Below are positions 3,554 through 52,633 of a stretch of 64,000 nucleotides of DNA, piece after piece. How positions within the stretch are numbered: the first letter of the stretch is position 1; every line of letters starts with the position of its first letter. The notes under the pieces are model-generated. The model was not told the DNA's origin. It saw only the letters and a program-made list of their open reading frames with translations, and did not search any database. Both the position numbers and the translations under genes were made by a program. The DNA is taken from positions 4,299,501-4,363,500 of the forward strand of contig NZ_CP012670.1 of the NCBI RefSeq assembly GCF_004135735.1, given 5' to 3'. Source of the stretch: Sorangium cellulosum. Lineage in GTDB: Bacteria > Myxococcota_A > Polyangia > Polyangiales > Polyangiaceae.

Positions 3554-5101
<1,548 letters not shown>

Positions 5102-41307: not shown

Positions 41308-43968
41308 GTGCCGCCGGACATCGTCACAGGGCGCGTCGACGCGCTGGTCGTGACCGCGCTGGAGGACGAGCTCGAGGCGGTGCTCGCGCTCGGCGACGGC
41401 GGCAGGGACGGCTGGCGCGAGGCGCGGGATCGCGGCGGCTTCCCGTGCTGGCTGCGCGAGATCCCGGGCGAGCGCGGCCAGCCGCTCCGCGTGGCCGCGG
41501 CGTGCTCCGGGCGGATGGGCGAGCGCGCGGCGGCGCTGCGGGCGCAGGGGCTCATCGACCAGCTCGACCCGGGGTGCCTCGCGGTTGCCGGCGTCTGCGC
41601 GGGCCGGCGCGGCGAGGTGGCGCTCGGCGACGTCGTCGTCGCGGACCGCGTCTACAGCGCCGGCGAGCGCGGCGAGGGCGCCGGCGAGCGCGCCGCGCAG
41701 GGCGACGCGGGCGGGCTCTTCCACGTCCTCGAGGCGTACGATCTCGAGCGGACGTGGGGCCTGGACGCCGCGCGCTTCGCGCAGGAGTTCGAGCGGTCGA
41801 CGGCGCTCGCGCGCGAGCGCCCGCCGTCGAGGAGCTCGCAGGCGCGCTGGCTCCTGCACGCGCTCCACGCCTTCCAGGCCGAGGGAGGTCCGCCGCCCGC
41901 CGCGCACCCCGAGCGCGCCCGGCGATGCCCGGGCTGGACCGAGCGCCTCGGCGAGCTGGAGGCCCAGGGGGTGCTCCGCATCGGCGACGGCGGCCTCGAG
42001 CTCACGGAGGCGGGCGTCGCGGAGGTCCGCCGCGATCGCCTGCTCCACCCGGACGGCCCGCCGCCGCCCCGGCCGTTCCGCGTGCACATCGGCCCGATCG
42101 CCGCGGGCGAGGCGGCGCACGCGGGCCCCGGGCTCTTCGAGCGGCTCGTGCCGGCCGGGCCGAGGGTGCTCGGCGTCGAGACGGAGGCCGCCGCGATCGC
42201 CCACGTCGCGGGGCGCCTCGGGCGCCGGTCGATCATCGCGAAGGCGGTCTCGGATCACGGCGACCACGACCGCGACGACGGCTTCCGCGCGTTCGCGTGC
42301 CGCGCCTCGGCGGAGTTCCTGCTCGCGTTCCTGCGCCGGCACCTGGAGCCCGCGCGCGACGGGCACGCCTCGCGCGACGGGCACTCCGCGCCCAACGGGC
42401 ACCCCCCGCGCGACGGGCGAGGCCGGAGGCTGCCCCGCCTCCCGGCGCGCGCCGGAGGCGTCCACGCGGGGCCGCGCGGCGACGACATCGTCCTGCCGGG
42501 GGAAGGGCGCAGCGACGATTTCCTCTCGCGCGTCGAGCGCGTGTGCAGGCTGCGCGAGCCCGAGGGCGTCGAGATCGAGTGGTTCGACGCCCCCCTCCCC
42601 TTCGGCTGCTACCTGCGCGTCGCGGTCAACGAGGGCGGCATCATCCGGATCGCGCCGCTCGCGGCGCTGGAGAGCGGCATCTCGACGGAGGCGGTCTCCG
42701 CGTTCCTGGAGAGCATCGACGCCTCGTACCGGCGCGACGATCCCGGCCTCGTGTCCACGCTGGTCTACGGCGGTGAGCCCGCGCCCGAGGCGCTCGTGCG
42801 CTACGCGAGCGCGCGGCGCGTGCGCCTCGTGCGGTTCCTGGAGTACCAGGGGCTCATCGATTTCCGCGGCTACCTCGCGTGGCAGAGCGCGCGGCTCGAG
42901 CGGGACCCGACCTACCCGCCGGCGCTCTACGTCGACCAGCGGATCGCGATCACGGTGGGCCAGGAGGAGACGCTGCACGAGCGCGCGCTCGACGCGTTCG
43001 CCGAGCTGCTCGACTCGGATCACGGCCGGTTCGTGCTGGTGCTCGGCGACTTCGGCACGGGCAAGACGTTCCTCTTGCACGAGCTCGCGCGGCGCATGGG
43101 CGAGGCGGGCGGCCCGCTGACGCCGGTGCTCATCGAGATGCGCGCGCTCGAGAAGGCGCGCGACCTGAGCGCGCTCGTCGCGCAGCACCTCGCGCTCGCG
43201 GGCCTCGGCAAGATCGACCTGCCCGCGTTCCGGCACATGCTCTCCGAGGGGCGGATCGCGCTGCTCTTCGACGGCTTCGACGAGCTCGCCTTCCGCGTCA
43301 CGTACGACCGCGCGGTCGAGCACTTCGACACGCTGCTGCAGGCGGCGCAGGGCAAGGCGGCGAAGGTGGTGGTCACGAGCCGGAGCCAGCACTTCGTCTC
43401 GGAGCAGCAGGTGAAGACCGCGCTCGCGGAGAAGGCCGCGCTCCTGCCCGGCTACCGGCTCGTGTGGCTCCGGCCGTTCACGGGGGCGCAGATCCGGCGG
43501 TTCCTCGTGAACCGGCTCGGCGGCGAGGAGGCGGCGGACGCGCGCCTGCGGCTGCTCGCGGACGTGAAGGACCTGCTCGGCCTGTCGGTGAACCCGCGGA
43601 TGCTCGGGTTCATCGCCGAGATCGAGGAGGCGCAGCTCCGGCAGGCGAAGGCGGGCGACGGGGAGATCACCTCGGCGGGGCTGTACAGGCTCCTCCTCGA
43701 CCGGTGGCTCGTCTGGGAGTACGAGCGCGCGCACCCGCGGGGCGCGCAGCCGGGGCTGTCGGTGGCGCAGCGGTGGCGGGCGGTGACGGAGCTCGCGACG
43801 CGGCTCTGGCACCGGACGGAGCAGAGCGTCAACGTGCGCGAGCTCTCCGCGGAGCTCATCGCGGCGCTGCAGGCGCTCGGGCGGCACGAGCTCGACGCCG
43901 GAGTGACGGCGCACCAGATCGGCTGCGGATCGACGGGCGGATGGGGCTCGGGGTGCGCGAGCGGATGA
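41308..43968 (+). CDS. STAND NTPase: nucleoside-phosphorylase-like domain - NACHT
   Basis: 886 residues. The N-terminus (about 10-340) is a purine-nucleoside-phosphorylase/MTA-nucleosidase-like domain: DALVVTALEDELEAVLAL, VAGVCAGRRGEVALGDVVVA, VLGVETEAAAIAHVAG and AKAVSDHGD with the catalytic acidic residue. A low-complexity hexapeptide repeat (DGHASR-type, about 351-372) and an unassigned domain (about 385-555) follow. The NACHT core has Walker A LGDFGTGKTFLLHE (near 580), Walker B RIALLFDGFDELA (near 650) and VVVTSRSQHF. The C-terminus ends abruptly after AHQIG with ten odd residues; homologues usually continue. Its TGA overlaps the ATG of the next gene. Likely a sensor-effector of an immunity system. 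Confidence 0.85.
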   Translation: MPPDIVTGRVDALVVTALEDELEAVLALGDGGRDGWREARDRGGFPCWLREIPGERGQPLRVAAACSGRMGERAAALRAQGLIDQLDPGCLAVAGVCAGRRGEVALGDVVVADRVYSAGERGEGAGERAAQGDAGGLFHVLEAYDLERTWGLDAARFAQEFERSTALARERPPSRSSQARWLLHALHAFQAEGGPPPAAHPERARRCPGWTERLGELEAQGVLRIGDGGLELTEAGVAEVRRDRLLHPDGPPPPRPFRVHIGPIAAGEAAHAGPGLFERLVPAGPRVLGVETEAAAIAHVAGRLGRRSIIAKAVSDHGDHDRDDGFRAFACRASAEFLLAFLRRHLEPARDGHASRDGHSAPNGHPPRDGRGRRLPRLPARAGGVHAGPRGDDIVLPGEGRSDDFLSRVERVCRLREPEGVEIEWFDAPLPFGCYLRVAVNEGGIIRIAPLAALESGISTEAVSAFLESIDASYRRDDPGLVSTLVYGGEPAPEALVRYASARRVRLVRFLEYQGLIDFRGYLAWQSARLERDPTYPPALYVDQRIAITVGQEETLHERALDAFAELLDSDHGRFVLVLGDFGTGKTFLLHELARRMGEAGGPLTPVLIEMRALEKARDLSALVAQHLALAGLGKIDLPAFRHMLSEGRIALLFDGFDELAFRVTYDRAVEHFDTLLQAAQGKAAKVVVTSRSQHFVSEQQVKTALAEKAALLPGYRLVWLRPFTGAQIRRFLVNRLGGEEAADARLRLLADVKDLLGLSVNPRMLGFIAEIEEAQLRQAKAGDGEITSAGLYRLLLDRWLVWEYERAHPRGAQPGLSVAQRWRAVTELATRLWHRTEQSVNVRELSAELIAALQALGRHELDAGVTAHQIGCGSTGGWGSGCASG

Positions 43969-46763
43969 ACCTCGCGGGGGCGGACCTGCGCGGCCAGGAC
44001 CTCTCCGGCAAGGATCTCAGCGGGTGCGATCTGCAGGGCGCTGACCTGCGGGAGGCGAAGCTCGTGGGCGCCAACCTGAGCGGGGCGCGGATGGCAGGGG
44101 CGCTGCTCGACGGGGCAGACCTGACGCGGGCGACGCTCTGCGGGGCAGACCTGAGGGGCGCGACGGCGGCGCGGGCGCGCTTTCTGGGCGCGGAGCTGAC
44201 GGGAGCGAAGCTCGCCTCGGCGAGGCTGCGCGGGGCGAAGCTCGTGGGCGCGCGGGGCGCCCGCTTCGAGCGGTGCGACACGTTCGGCGCGGCGATGCCG
44301 GAGGCGGCGACGCTCGCGCCGAGCTGGATGCAGGCCAGCCGGTGCAGCGCCGTGGCGTTCAGCCCCAGCGGCGCCCTGCTCGCCTCCTGCCACGTCCGAT
44401 CGATCGCGCTGTGGGACGCGGCGACCGGGAGCACGCTGCGCACGCTGGGCGGCCACGCGGACTGGATCACGAGCATCGCCTTCAGCCCTGACGGCGACAC
44501 CCTCGCGTCGGGCTCGGACGATCACACCGTCCGCCTCTGGGACGTGTCGACGGGGAACGTGCTCTGCGTGCTCAGGGGTCACACGAGCGAGGTGACCAGC
44601 GTGACGTTCAGCCCTGACGGCGAGGTGCTGGCTTCCGGCTCCTCCGACGCCACGGTCCGGCTCTGGGACATGGCCAACTTCCGCCAGCGCAGCGTGCTCC
44701 AGGGGCACCTGCAAGGCGTGAAGTCCGTGGCGTTCAGCCCTGACGGCGAGGTGCTGGCCTCGGGCGCTCACGACGCCACGATCCGCCTCTGGAAGGTCGC
44801 GACCGGCGACGTGCTTCGCGTGCTGAGCGGCCACCGGGGCGGCGTGCTCAGCGTCGTCTTCAGCCCTGACGGCGAGCGGCTGGCCTCCGGTTCCATCGAT
44901 TGCGACATTGGTCTCTGGCAGGCGTCGACGGGCGAGGCGCTGCACATGCTGCAGGGCCACACGCGGCATGTGAAGAGCGTCGCGTTCAGCCCCGACGGCG
45001 CCACGCTCGCCTCAGGCTCGGGCGATGGCTCGGTGCGGTTGTGGCATCGGTCCGGGATCACGTCGCACGTGCTGGAGGGCCATTCCGCCTCCGTGACCAC
45101 CGTGGCGTTCAGCCCTGACGGCGCCACGCTCGCCTCGGGCTCGAGGGACAGGACGGTTCAGCTCTGGCACGGTTCGACCGGCAGAGCCCTGCGCGTGCTG
45201 GAGGGCCCCCCGGGTGTGTCCATCTCCATCGCCTTGAGCCACGACGGCGCGACGCTCGCGGTCGGCGCCGAGGACATCGGTGTTCAGCTCTTCCGGGCGT
45301 CGACCGGGAACGCGCTGACGTCGTTGAAGGAGAGCGGGATATCCCTCTCGGCGCTCGCCTTCAGCCCTGACGGCGCGACGCTGGCGTTCGCTGCGCTCGA
45401 CCACACCGTCCGGCTCTGGCGGTTCGAGGCGGACCACGCGATGCGCGTGCTGAAGGGGCACTCCCATCATATCACCGATGTCGCCATCAGCCCTGATGGG
45501 GGAAAGGTCGCGTCTGGCTCCTTCGACAGGACGGTGCGGCTCTGGCGCACCGGGACGGCGGAGCTGCTTCGCGTGCTGGAAGGTCATGAGGACGACGTGA
45601 GGAGCGTGGCCTTCAGGCCCGACGGCGCGACGCTCGCCTCCGGGTCGGTCGATCGAACCGTTCGGCTCTGGAAGGTGGCGGGCGAAGGGCCGGCTCGCGT
45701 GCTGGCGCGTCACGAGGATGTCGTCCGGAGCGTGGCCTTCAGCCCCGACGGCGCGACGCTCGCCTCCGGGTCCTACGACAGGACCGTGCGGCTCTGGCCG
45801 CTCGTCGGTGACGCAGCGCCATGCACGCTGCGCGGCCACGCCGGCCAGGTGACGAGCGTGACGTTCAGCCCCGACGGGACATGGCTCGCGTCGGGCTCCG
45901 CCGACGGCGACGTTCGCCTCTGGCGCGCATCGACAGGCGATCTTGCGCGCGTCCTCGAGGGGCACACGGCCAGGGTCGAGCGCGTGGCCTTCATGCCGGA
46001 TGGCGGTACGATGCTCTCGAGCTCACTCGACAGCACCGTTCGTTTCTGGGACGTGCGCACCGGCGCGTGCCTCGCCGTGCTGCTCGTGTTTCCCGAGGGC
46101 TGGATCGCCTTCCGCCCCGACGGCCGGTACAAGCTCGGCGGCAACGTCGCCGGGGGCTTCTGGCACGCCGCGAACCTCTGCCGCTTCGATCTCGGCGAGC
46201 TCGACGAGATCGTCCCCGGCCTGCGCATCCCGGACGACGAGCCGCTGATCCCCGCGGCGCCGGACCGCACCGCCCCGACCCCTGCGGAGAGAGGCGTCCA
46301 GCGGACCCGGCCCATCCGCCTCTTCTTCAGCTACGCCCACCAGGACGAGGCGCTCCGCGACGAGCTGGAGACGCACCTCGCCCTGCTCCGGCGCGAGGGC
46401 CTCCTCGAGGGCTGGCACGACCGCCGCATCGCCGCCGGCGACGCGTGGGCGGGGCAGATCGACAGGCACCTCGCGGAGGCCGACGTGATCCTGCTCCTCG
46501 TGAGCGCCGACTTCCTCGCCTCGGACTACTGCTTCGACCGGGAGATGAAGCGGGCCCTGGAGCGCCACGACGCCGGCAAGGCCCAGGTCATCCCGGTCCT
46601 GCTCCGCCAGGCCGACTGGCGCAGCGCGCCGTTCGCCCGGCTCAAGGCGCTCCCGGAGGACGAGCGGCCGGTCACCCTCTGGCAGGACCGCGACGCCGCG
46701 TGGACCGACGTGGCCATGGGCATCCGGCGCGCGGTCGAGGCGCTCCGCGGGCAATCCGCGTAG
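43965..46763 (+). CDS. Pentapeptide repeat - 14 WD40 repeats - TIR protein
   Basis: 932 residues from ATG 43965, overlapping the NACHT stop as ATGA. Pentapeptide repeats (A/D-L-x-x types such as GADLRGQDLSG) fill residues 1-100. Fourteen WD40 repeats follow (about 127-708), each with SVAFSPDGATLASGS and TVRLW-like phrases, enough for two seven-bladed propellers; repeats 7-9 are the most diverged. The C-terminal TIR_2-type domain (about 782-932) reads IRLFFSYAHQDEALRDELE, later LLVSADFLASDYCFDREM. TIR domains often cleave NAD. In related proteins all parts, including NACHT, lie in one chain, so this gene and the previous one may be a split version. Confidence 0.9.
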   Translation: MNLAGADLRGQDLSGKDLSGCDLQGADLREAKLVGANLSGARMAGALLDGADLTRATLCGADLRGATAARARFLGAELTGAKLASARLRGAKLVGARGARFERCDTFGAAMPEAATLAPSWMQASRCSAVAFSPSGALLASCHVRSIALWDAATGSTLRTLGGHADWITSIAFSPDGDTLASGSDDHTVRLWDVSTGNVLCVLRGHTSEVTSVTFSPDGEVLASGSSDATVRLWDMANFRQRSVLQGHLQGVKSVAFSPDGEVLASGAHDATIRLWKVATGDVLRVLSGHRGGVLSVVFSPDGERLASGSIDCDIGLWQASTGEALHMLQGHTRHVKSVAFSPDGATLASGSGDGSVRLWHRSGITSHVLEGHSASVTTVAFSPDGATLASGSRDRTVQLWHGSTGRALRVLEGPPGVSISIALSHDGATLAVGAEDIGVQLFRASTGNALTSLKESGISLSALAFSPDGATLAFAALDHTVRLWRFEADHAMRVLKGHSHHITDVAISPDGGKVASGSFDRTVRLWRTGTAELLRVLEGHEDDVRSVAFRPDGATLASGSVDRTVRLWKVAGEGPARVLARHEDVVRSVAFSPDGATLASGSYDRTVRLWPLVGDAAPCTLRGHAGQVTSVTFSPDGTWLASGSADGDVRLWRASTGDLARVLEGHTARVERVAFMPDGGTMLSSSLDSTVRFWDVRTGACLAVLLVFPEGWIAFRPDGRYKLGGNVAGGFWHAANLCRFDLGELDEIVPGLRIPDDEPLIPAAPDRTAPTPAERGVQRTRPIRLFFSYAHQDEALRDELETHLALLRREGLLEGWHDRRIAAGDAWAGQIDRHLAEADVILLLVSADFLASDYCFDREMKRALERHDAGKAQVIPVLLRQADWRSAPFARLKALPEDERPVTLWQDRDAAWTDVAMGIRRAVEALRGQSA

Positions 46764-46879: not shown

Positions 46880-46938
46880 GAGGGGAGGGTCCGCTGTCCG
46901 CGTGCGCGTGCGCGTGATCCGCGTGCGCGTGCGCGTGA

Positions 46939-47412
46939 AAGGAGCGGCGACGGAGCCTCGAGACCAGCATCGCCGCCGACCTCCACGGCCCCTTTCAGAA
47001 GCGGCGCAACGGCCCAGGGGGGTGGTGGATCCTCGTCGAGCCGGGCATCGAGCTGCCTCGCGCCCCCGAGGTCTCGCCGGACATCGCGGGGTGGCGGCGC
47101 GAGCGGCTGCCTCGCCTGCCGGTGACGGAGCCGATCCGCGTCGTGCCCGACTGGGTCTGCGAGATCCTGTCCCTCCGGACGCGCGCCTACGATCTCATCG
47201 TCAAGCGGCGCTTCTACGCCGAGATCGGGGTGGGCCACCTCTGGTACGTGGACGCCGAGGCGAGATCGCTCGCGGTCAGCCGCCTCGTCGACGGCAGGTG
47301 GCTCGAGCTCGGCGTCCACGGCCCGACGGATCGGGTGCGCGCCGAGCCGTTCGAGGACGTGGAGATCGAGCTCTCCGTCTGGTGGGAGGACCTCGACATC
47401 GAGAGCGGCTGA
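46939..47412 (+). pseudogene. Uma2-family (DUF820) nuclease, 5' truncated
   Basis: The readable frame starts right after an in-frame TGA (46936-46938) with no plausible start before GTG 47122. It encodes DLHGPFQKRRNGPGGWWILV, SPDIAGWRRERLP, DWVCEILSLRTRAYDLIVKR, then FYAEIGVGHLWYVD, the core of Uma2 proteins (PD-(D/E)xK fold; Asp of PDIAGW, Glu of CEIL, Lys of VKR kept). About 45-50 N-terminal residues normally present are missing, their place taken by a GCGTGC-repeat stretch. A shorter protein from 47122 (96 residues) would lack part of the active site. Confidence 0.75.
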
Positions 47413-47423
47413 ACGCCGACGCG

Positions 47424-47675
47424 ATGTCGCGACATGCCCACCTGCCTCGCCGGCCAGCCCCCGGCCATGTCGCGACATGCCCGCCTGCCTCGCCGGCCAG
47501 CCCCCGGCCATGTCGCGACATGCCCGCCTGCCTCGCCAACCAGCCCCCGGCCATGTCGCGACATGCCCGCCTGCCTCGCCAACCAGCCCCCGGCCATGTC
47601 GCGACATGCCCGCCTGCCTCGCCGGCCAGCCCTGGGCCATGTCGCGACACGCCGGCCTGCCCCGCCCCGTTCGCC
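47424..47675. repeat. Six 43-bp units each containing the palindrome ATGTCGCGACAT
   Basis: Units start at 47424, 47467, 47510, 47553, 47596 and 47639, exactly 43 bases apart. Each begins with the perfect 12-bp palindrome ATGTCGCGACAT (the sixth ends in C instead of T) followed by GCCCGCCTGCCTCGCC and a stretch ending CCGGCC. Units 3 and 4 carry GCCAACCAG instead of GCCGGCCAG. Because 43 is not divisible by three, any reading frame cycles through all phases, so it is not coding. It lies 270 bases upstream of the lactate permease gene. It has no variable spacers, so it is not a CRISPR. Confidence 0.95.
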
Positions 47676-47940
47676 CTCACCGGCAGGGCCCTCCCCACCG
47701 CTCCCCGCGCATCTCTCCCGCGCCTCCAGCGGCGACGTTCGCGCGGCTCGCCCTGACCGCGGCGAGCTCGGGTGATCCAGGAAGACCTCGATTCCGATCC
47801 TGAGAGCCGCGGCCCACCCGCGATCCCCCAGCGATGGGCGGGCTCTCCAGGCCGCGCCGGATCGCCGCAACGCCTGGCGTTGGCGCGCATTTCCGGATAT
47901 TCGCGATTCGAGGAGCCCGCTGACCGCCGCGCCAGCGTCG

Positions 47941-49629
47941 ATGACGACTCCCGCCGGAGCCATGCTCGCAGCGCTCGCCTCGATCCCCATCCTCACCGCC
48001 CTCGTGCTCCTCGCCGGCCTGCGGTGGCAGGCGTCGCGCGCCATGCCGGTGTGCGCGCTCGCGGCCGGCGCGATCGCCCTCTTCGCCTGGCGGGTCCCGC
48101 CGATCCGGGCGCTCGCGGCGGTCGTCGAGGGGGGGTTCATCACGATCAGCATCCTGCTCATCGTCTTCGGCGCCCTCTTCCTGCTCGCCGTGATGAACGC
48201 GTCCGGCGCGATGGGCGCCCTCCAGACCGCCCTCGCCGCGGTGAGCCGCGATCGCCGGGTGCAGGCCGTGCTCATCGCCTGGCATTTCGGCTCGTTCATC
48301 GAGGGGGCCGCGGGCTTCGGCACGCCGGCGGCCATCACCGCGCCGCTGCTCGTCGGGCTCGGCTTTCCGCCGCTGGCCGCGGTGGTCGTCGCGCTCGTCG
48401 GCGACAGCACGGCCGTGTCGTTCGGCGCCGTGGGCACGCCCATGATCGTCGGCATGGGGCAAGGCCTCGTCGGGCTCGCGGAGCGCGCCGGCGCGGGGGC
48501 GCTCGCTCCGGACGCCGCCGCCATCGGGCAACGGATCGCGCTCCACGACCTCGCGCTCGGGACGTGCATGCCCGTGGTGATGGTGCTGTCGCTCACCGTC
48601 GGCTTCGGCGGCCGGAGCAGCCTGCGCGACGGCCTCCGCGCCGCGCCGTTCGCGCTGGCGACGGGGCTCAGCCAGGCCGCCGCCGCGGCGGCGGTCGCCT
48701 GGGCCCTCGGCCCCGAGTTCCCGAGCCTCGTGGGCGCCACCGCGGGGCTCCTGGTCGCGCTGCTCCTGGCCTCGCGCGGGCTGCTCGTGCCCGGGCAGAC
48801 CTGGGACTTCCCGCCCGCTGCGGCGGAGGCCGCGGCGCTCCCCGCTCCGGCCGACGCCACAGCGCCCCCCGGGGCGCCTCCGCCCTCACGCGAGGCGCCG
48901 GCGCGGCCCGGTCCGAGCGTGGGCCGCGCGCTCGTGCCTTACGTCGTCCTGGCGGCGCTGCTCTCCCTCACGCGCGTGCGGGCGCAGCCGTTCGGCGCGG
49001 CGCTCGAGCGCGTCGCCGTCGGGCCGGGAGAGCTCTTCGGCACCGGCATCTCGGCCGCGCTCCAGCCGCTGCACTCGCCCGGCGCGGTCTTCGTGGTCAC
49101 GACGCTCGTGGCCGCGCTGCTGCTCGGCCTCTCCCGCCGCGCGCTCGGGCAGGCCGTCGTCGAGGCGGGCGGCGTCGCGGCCCGGACCGCGGTGCCGCTC
49201 GTGGCCGCGGTGGTCACGGTGCGCCTGTTCATCCACTCGGGCGTCAACGCGGAGGACCTCCCGGCGATGCCGCTCGCGCTCGCGGACGTCGCCGCGCGCA
49301 GCCTCGGCGGCGTGTGGCCGATCGTGGCGCCATGGGTCGGCGCGCTGGGCTCCTTCATCGCGGGCAGCGCCACGTTCAGCAACATGCTGTTCGCCCTGTT
49401 CCAGCACGGCGTGGCGGTCGACGCCGGCCAGGATCCGGTCGCGATCCTGGCGCTCCAGGGCATGGGCGCCGCCGCGGGCAACATGGTCTGTGTCCACAAC
49501 GTGGTCGCGGCGTGCGCCGTCGCGCGCATCCTCGGCCAGGAGGGCCAGGTGATCCGGCGGACCGCGGCGCCCATGGTCGCCTACATCGTGCTGGCCGGGC
49601 TGCTGGGCTGGGCGCTCCAGGCGAGCTGA
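47941..49629 (+). CDS. lldP: L-lactate permease (LctP/LldP family)
   Basis: 562 residues; ATG 47941, or ATG 47962 which has GGAG close upstream. The family signature region is clear: [20 protein letters not shown] followed by [12 protein letters not shown] and [18 protein letters not shown], and near the end [19 protein letters not shown] with [18 protein letters not shown]. About 13-14 membrane segments. A Pro/Ala-rich cytoplasmic loop lies at about 300-325. It imports lactate (or glycolate) with protons. Nothing else for lactate use is nearby. The palindrome array upstream could be its control region. Confidence 0.93.
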
Positions 49630-50896: not shown

Positions 50897-52633
50897 GTGA
50901 TCGCCATCCCCAAGACCCTCGAGAACGCGCTGCGGGATCGCTACGTCGTGCCGTTCGTCGGCGCCGGCGTGTCCATGGCCGCGCAGGACCGGAACGGGGA
51001 GCGGGTGTTCCCGAGCTGGGCAGAGCTGCTCTCCGGGGCAGCGACGCGCCTCCGCGAGGACGGCAAGCGGCCCGAGGCCAACGTGGTGGAGGGGCTGCTC
51101 GAGAAGCGGACGCCCGACTACTTCGAGGCCGCCCGCTACGCGCGCGAGGGCATGGGGCCGGGCTGGTACCGCTACCTCCGCGAGGCGCTGGATCCGCCGA
51201 GCCACCGCATCGATCCCCGCTCGCTGTCGCTCGCGCGCGCGGTCTGGCAGCTCCCGAGCAAGCTGGTGATCACGACCAACTACGATCAGATCCTCCGCCA
51301 CGCGCTCGACGACCCGAACGATCTGGTGCAGCTCAGCGTGGACGCGACGGCGGAGCTGTCGGCCATGCTGCGCGACGAGATCGATCGGCCGACCGTCTGG
51401 CACCTGCACGGCTTCATCCAGCAGCCGCAGCGGCTGATCCTGACGCCGGACGGCTACCGCGAGCTGTACCCGAGCCAGGAGGACGAGGTGCGGTACCGCG
51501 CCGCGCTCCAGGCGTTGCGCCACCTGCTCGCGGCGCGCACCTTCCTGTTCATCGGCTTCAGCCTGGACGACGCGCTGTTCGGCAACCAGATCGCCTGGGT
51601 CCAGGAGGCGTTCGGCGGCGCCGCGGGGCCGCATTACATGCTCGTCCGGGCGCACGAGCTGCGCGACTCGCAGCGGCGGCTCAAGGACCTGAGCTGCATC
51701 GAGTTCCTGCCGTTCGAGGGCTTCGGCGCCCCTCTCGTCGCGCTGGTGCAAGCCCTCGGGGCCGCCGGGCACGAGCGCTACGCGGCGGCGCCGCCGGCCG
51801 CGGACGTCCCTCGGGCCCCCTCGGCCCGAGCGCCCGCTCCGGCCGAGCGCACGTCGCTGGTGAACGAGGCCGCGCCCGCTCAGCCCGTCGTCGCGCCCGG
51901 TCGTCCCGCTCCCGCGCCCGCCCCACCTGCCGGCGCGCCCGCCCCGCCCGCCGCCGCGCCCGCCCCACCTGCCGCCGCGCCCGCGCTCGTCCCACCCGCC
52001 GCCGCGAGCGCGCCCGTCGCCGCCGATCCACCAGCGACCGACGGCGCCATGGATATGTCCCTCGTCAGGCAGAGCTACCGGCTCGTCTACGAGTACCAGC
52101 GCTGCGTCTTCGATCGCCTGGCAGAGCTGTCCGATGGGCTCGCCGCCGTCGGGCTCACATTCCAGCGCTGGGATCCGACCCTGTTCTCACGTCACGCCAA
52201 GTCGAGCTCGGAGTTCTTTCGGCGCAAGTACTGGGCCTGGGATTTCCTGCCCGCGTATCGCCTCCAGCTCGTCTGGCAGTCGTCGGCCAAGATCTCGCGG
52301 AGCCTGGTGCTCGAGGTGGTGTCGGACTCGGGGTTCACGCACATTCGCGGCGAGGAGCCGGATCCGACCAGGTTCGGCGACGTGCGCGCGGCGCGCTCCG
52401 AGCTGCAGATCAGCCTGCTGCGGTCCCCCGTCCCGAACCTGTCGTGGACCCAGCTCTGGTCGTCCTTGAGCGTCGAGGACGACACGATTTACGACGGAGA
52501 AGATCACGAGCTCGACGCCGGCGGGAAGCCGTGTACCTACCGGTACCTCAACGTCGCGCTCGAGGATGCGCTGGACCGAGATGCCTTCAGGGAGCGCGTC
52601 ATCGCGCCTGTCCGCGCCTGGCTCGATCGCTGA
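50897..52633 (+). CDS. SIR2-type NADase-like protein with linker and unknown C-terminal domain
   Basis: 578 residues from GTG 50897. The N-terminal 290 residues form a SIR2-like domain: VVPFVGAGVSMAAQD (NAD-binding GAGxS), VITTNYDQILRHAL, TVWHLHGFIQQPQRLILT and FLFIGFSLDDALFG. Such domains act as NAD-consuming effectors in several phage-defence systems. An Ala/Pro linker (about 298-384) follows. The last 190 residues, beginning SLVRQSYRLVYEYQRCVFDR, are a compact domain with many aromatic residues (FFRRKYWAWDFLPAYRLQLV) that I do not recognise; it could be the trigger-sensing part. DNA for this last part is less GC-rich than the rest. It stands alone, with no obvious partner. Confidence 0.85.
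   Translation: MIAIPKTLENALRDRYVVPFVGAGVSMAAQDRNGERVFPSWAELLSGAATRLREDGKRPEANVVEGLLEKRTPDYFEAARYAREGMGPGWYRYLREALDPPSHRIDPRSLSLARAVWQLPSKLVITTNYDQILRHALDDPNDLVQLSVDATAELSAMLRDEIDRPTVWHLHGFIQQPQRLILTPDGYRELYPSQEDEVRYRAALQALRHLLAARTFLFIGFSLDDALFGNQIAWVQEAFGGAAGPHYMLVRAHELRDSQRRLKDLSCIEFLPFEGFGAPLVALVQALGAAGHERYAAAPPAADVPRAPSARAPAPAERTSLVNEAAPAQPVVAPGRPAPAPAPPAGAPAPPAAAPAPPAAAPALVPPAAASAPVAADPPATDGAMDMSLVRQSYRLVYEYQRCVFDRLAELSDGLAAVGLTFQRWDPTLFSRHAKSSSEFFRRKYWAWDFLPAYRLQLVWQSSAKISRSLVLEVVSDSGFTHIRGEEPDPTRFGDVRAARSELQISLLRSPVPNLSWTQLWSSLSVEDDTIYDGEDHELDAGGKPCTYRYLNVALEDALDRDAFRERVIAPVRAWLDR

Follow-up and report, generated by a model that had tools for sequence, protein, structure and literature searches.

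Type III toxin-antitoxin systems contain ToxI RNA arrays, short tandem runs of structured repeats of ~35-40 nt, which are a likeness to the arrays described here. The present arrays differ in having no common downstream toxin gene and in lying behind unrelated genes. They also resemble REP, BIME and REPIN elements in being short, palindromic, extragenic, often clustered and often found at gene 3′ ends, and in some arrays in a clear potential to form hairpins, which is weak in others (see below); small elements that appear inserted in some units (see below) count as a further likeness. However, REP elements are dispersed through the genome in >100 copies, whereas the present arrays occupy few loci per genome, and their direct head-to-tail tandem arrangement with 0-2 bp junctions is unlike that of REP, BIME or REPIN. 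One end of a REP element also bears an unpaired tag, GTAG or CGTC (PMC3733652); there is no GTAG/CGTC tag here, the junctions being 0-2 arbitrary bases. A further difference is that a Y1 transposase-like gene, itself a weak match, was noticed near one array only (see below).

The sopC site (parS-F) of the F plasmid consists of twelve 43-bp tandem repeats with 16-bp inverted repeats that are bound by ParB (PMC6238139). The locus studied here shares with sopC the tandem 43-bp units with one palindrome each, but the palindrome is a different one, a chromosome has several arrays, parAB is absent from the scanned neighbours, the spacers differ between arrays, and the dyad gap varies. Searches of papers found no description of this repeat, and Rfam gave no match at gathering score at the arrays.

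Our preferred reading, to which we assign a probability of roughly 0.45, is that these are tandem arrays of what may be a REP-like palindromic gene-end element, i.e. a terminator or 3′-end hairpin that is possibly partly neutral. Extragenic palindromes would thereby gain a tandem, low-copy type that is linked to the ends of genes, and this in soil bacteria with very large genomes, in which transcription termination has been little studied.

The window array and its neighbours

The stretch of DNA that was analysed (the window) comprises 64,000 nt of a Sorangium cellulosum chromosome. The features at and around the array are:

47122..47412, plus strand: C-terminal part of a Uma2-family gene; 12 nt separate its stop codon from the array
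47424..47650, no strand: tandem array of six 43-bp units, each starting with the palindrome ATGTCGCGACAT, the last with ATGTCGCGACAC
47431..47600, no strand: first four of five GACAT...ATGTC units in the hairpin phase (41 nt, with GC between them), inner stem weak (z ~ -0.9)
47603..47643, no strand: fifth GACAT...ATGTC unit, which folds best among the window units (-17.5 kcal/mol)
47678..47722, minus strand: what is left of the 3′ end of an arrestin-like gene, reading ...REMRGERWGGPCR-stop, beside the array
47941..49629, plus strand: L-lactate permease gene (Lactate_perm), 291 bp downstream of the array and not its conserved partner

The original prediction of six 43-bp units with a palindrome was confirmed by Tandem Repeats Finder (47424-47666, period 43, 5.7 copies, 95% matches, score 416) and by counting the motif: six copies of ATGTCGCGACAT with at most one mismatch are found in the window where 0.12 are expected, a count that none of the shuffles reached. 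As had also been predicted, the palindrome is identical in five units (starts at 47424, 47467, 47510, 47553 and 47596) and changed by one base in the sixth (ATGTCGCGACAC, at 47639). Across the genome, a single contig of 11,261,481 bp, there are five copies of the unaltered 12-mer, all five inside the window array; the eight additional one-mismatch copies outside it are about the number that we estimate from base composition. ATGTC/GACAT dyads with any gap of 0-2 bp number 16 in the genome, compared to 3 for the reversed control, and cluster at the array sites only.

The perfect register of the units on one face of the helix, on the other hand, had been overstated. At 10.5 bp/turn, 43 bp correspond to 4.10 turns, so that the sites rotate by ~34 degrees per unit, and related arrays have periods of 42-44 bp with a dyad gap of 0-2 bp. 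This bears on the main functional rival to a gene-end element, namely a sopC-like array in which a dimeric DNA-binding protein would recognise each ATGTC-N-GACAT and the tandem spacing would allow a larger assembly to form, with a centromere-like or nucleoid-organising role or that of a titrating decoy. The restriction of exact ATGTCGCGACAT to the array, the dyad excess over the control, the conservation of the dyad core alone between genera (see below) and the precedent of the ParB-bound F plasmid repeats (PMC6238139) all speak for such a protein. However, half-sites would rotate relative to each other with a gap that varies from 0 to 2 bp between arrays and from 1 to 2 bp even inside single arrays, and the arms differ among arrays of one genome. 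Together, the variable gap and the differing arms argue against one rigid dimeric binding protein. Furthermore, partition genes are absent among the scanned neighbours (a Pfam scan of 17 proteins, 15 of them from the window between 36.8 and 63 kb, found no ParA or ParB), the plasmid and phage searches were without match, and the window locus is degenerate or absent in two other Sorangium genomes (G002 and G003). We consider a sopC-like array less likely than a gene-end element, but a serious rival to it. Cooperative binding of a dimer, as first proposed, is possible in principle, but the strict helical phasing that went with it is not conserved. The suggestion of an iteron-like origin or centromere-like site is weakened by the lack of a partition gene in the scanned neighbours, the presence of several arrays per chromosome, and the lack of plasmid or phage matches. 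A plasmid or phage origin of the array was also rejected, as no match was found in plasmid records, phage records or viral contigs.

The array lies upstream of the permease gene and had been taken as a candidate operator cluster for it. A search of the five other Sorangium genomes found no permease homologue at E≤1e-60, although arrays of this kind are present in at least four of the five, which shows the array family to be independent of the permease. In addition, a scan restricted to the sigma-70 type found no such promoter between array and gene, and the array is tied to the 3′ end of a different, arrestin-like gene whose other copies carry an array. The operator is thus unsupported and highly improbable; a striking palindrome beside a transporter gene need not be that gene's operator.

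Only the last codons of the arrestin-like gene survive in the window, where the minus strand reads ...RGERWGGPCR-stop. In full-length relatives, which end ...RGERRGGPYR-stop, the stop codon is followed by an array or by what remains of one; the relatives in G001, G002 and G003 have either an array or a decayed remnant there. The relatives of the Uma2 gene in G002 and G003 are without an array. The array of the window is the one that usually follows the arrestin-like gene.

Related arrays in other genomes

Searching with the window array revealed a second array in the same genome, at 8854502, and related arrays in other Sorangium genomes. What they have in common is the dyad ATGTC-N1-2-GACAT (N0-2 when arrays of other genera are included) and a period of 42-44 bp, while the spacer of ~31 bp is nearly uniform inside one array and unrelated from array to array. 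With a covariance model of the unit, for which the best 150 candidates per genome were scored, each Sorangium genome has a handful of loci, and not the hundreds of scattered copies expected of a generic repeat; the genome of the window has ~24 matches (both strands counted) at about five loci.

The pattern ATGTC-N0-2-GACAT-N28-34-ATGTC extended the set of arrays to other genera and other families within the order (G014, G015, the Byssovorax genome G051, G116 and G130). Its control gave one match in 108 genomes of the family and, with slightly narrower spacing, none order-wide. Among 373 genomes of the phylum, repeated matches occur solely in this order; those outside it have isolated chance matches only. 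A stricter pattern applied to the GTDB collection matched Sorangium, Byssovorax and two Deltaproteobacteria MAGs; matches were also spread over other phyla, there as single pairs or arrays of different period. Matches in Bacteroidales, Streptococcaceae, Anaerolineales and other groups were not counted as relatives, being mostly isolated pairs or arrays with a ~21-bp period. Arrays in G090 and G094 (ATGTCGACAT, gap 0) overlap a ~21-bp repeat of the GTCGACA type and were set aside as probably belonging to a different family.

When arrays from different genera are compared, nothing but the dyad core is conserved. Inside one genome the arms can differ from array to array and yet mostly pair (ATGTC/GACAT, AGGTC/GATCT, AGATC/GACCT), and in G003 they are ATATC/GATAT.

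These comparisons also bear on the possibility that the arrays are neutral minisatellites, in which case quasi-palindromic sequence would promote slippage and hairpin-templated repair, and palindromic tandem repeats would form and decay without any function. Copy number and presence do vary between species at the same place. Moreover, the reversed control CTGTA-N29-33-TACAG-N1-2-CTGTA matched a genome outside the class (G185) seven times each way, apparently at an unrelated palindromic array of similar period, which suggests that palindromic arrays of other cores with a similar period may be common. Neutral origin does not account readily for the same ATGTC/GACAT core in several genera of different families, whose units are otherwise unrelated, or for an array kept behind one gene across two genera (see below), and we regard it as about as likely as a sopC-like array, again a serious rival.

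Small elements, GTGCTCAA...TTGAGCAC and GGTCGCGTTT...AAACGCGACC, are inserted within or at the edge of array units at several loci, as if targeting the loop:

L059, ~4320-4460
L060, 4150-4200
L127, near 6630 and 12290
L210, ~3780-3860

At a distance of 1.3 kb from one array, in G015, L122 5777-6721 encodes a protein with a weak likeness to Y1 transposases (Y1_Tnp E 0.0019); none was noticed near the others.

Gene ends and hairpin folding

Arrays tend to begin directly after stop codons. About 11 of the 16 array loci are within 100 nt of a stop codon, compared to 28% of intergenic positions in the window, a figure that is rough and indicative only, given automatic gene calls and loci that are not fully independent. 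Arrays far from any stop codon include those of L208 and L209 and arrays b and c of G015, and the arrays do not all point the same way with respect to the gene beside them. One orthologous gene in five Sorangium genomes (G000, G001, G002, G003 and G005) and Byssovorax (G051) has an array that starts 15-30 nt behind its stop codon, each opening with a GACAT-like half. The gene encodes a protein TLRNLTIGDLKLALRDLL..., for which no Pfam family was found. A conserved place behind one orthologous gene makes a function directly testable.

Folding is possible when a unit is taken to run from GACAT to ATGTC. Behind the TLRNLTIGDLKLALRDLL gene, the first unit forms a long hairpin in 6/6 genomes, and 5 of its 18 pairs are changed on both sides among the six. 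Its covariation score of 0.259 compares with at most 0.129 when the unit is slid, and is reached by 14 of 500 shuffles. Units of G130, G014 and the first array of G015 (G015a) also fold well beyond shuffled interiors. Folding of the window units does not exceed that of shuffled interiors (z -0.9; p 0.23 for the most frequent unit), covariation is absent from an alignment of 32 Sorangium units (no pair changed on both sides), and no intrinsic terminator, i.e. a G+C-rich hairpin with a U-run, is present in 47100-48000.

For a gene-end element, the relevant unit would be GACAT-(~31 nt)-ATGTC, of ~41 nt with 0-2 nt between neighbours, and the ATGTC..GACAT palindrome would mark where two units meet. 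Each unit could form a hairpin when single-stranded, whether as RNA or as DNA. The first unit after the stop codon, which is predicted to be the best hairpin, probably terminates the upstream gene's transcript or protects it. The additional units form a pattern of homogenisation within each array, and they may have arisen by unequal crossing-over or slippage. The window element would once have been the 3′ end of the arrestin-like gene, since lost, and is here probably a relic with little present function.

The GACAT/ATGTC core is more constant than pairing alone requires, and such an invariant core suggests that something beyond pairing is kept. In a related and more tentative proposal, which we hold to be doubtful, the element would be new, specific to the order and defined by its unchanging GACAT/ATGTC core; it would be retained after certain genes in more than one genus, be amplified in tandem, and act through a dedicated protein or RNA mechanism (3′-end formation or array-based DNA organisation).

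Other sequences in the window

At 46897-46938 there is a perfect 21-bp tandem duplication (TCCGCGTGCGCGTGCGCGTGA), and similar sequence occurs many times elsewhere in the genome. The open reading frames in 41308-46763 specify a PNP-NACHT-iREase3 protein and, after it in a different frame, a pentapeptide/WD40 protein whose C-terminus is TIR-like. Together they resemble a STAND protein of the defence type, and a frameshift has perhaps split a single gene. Near these STAND genes, a SIR2_2-domain protein is encoded at 50897-52633, possibly another defence gene.
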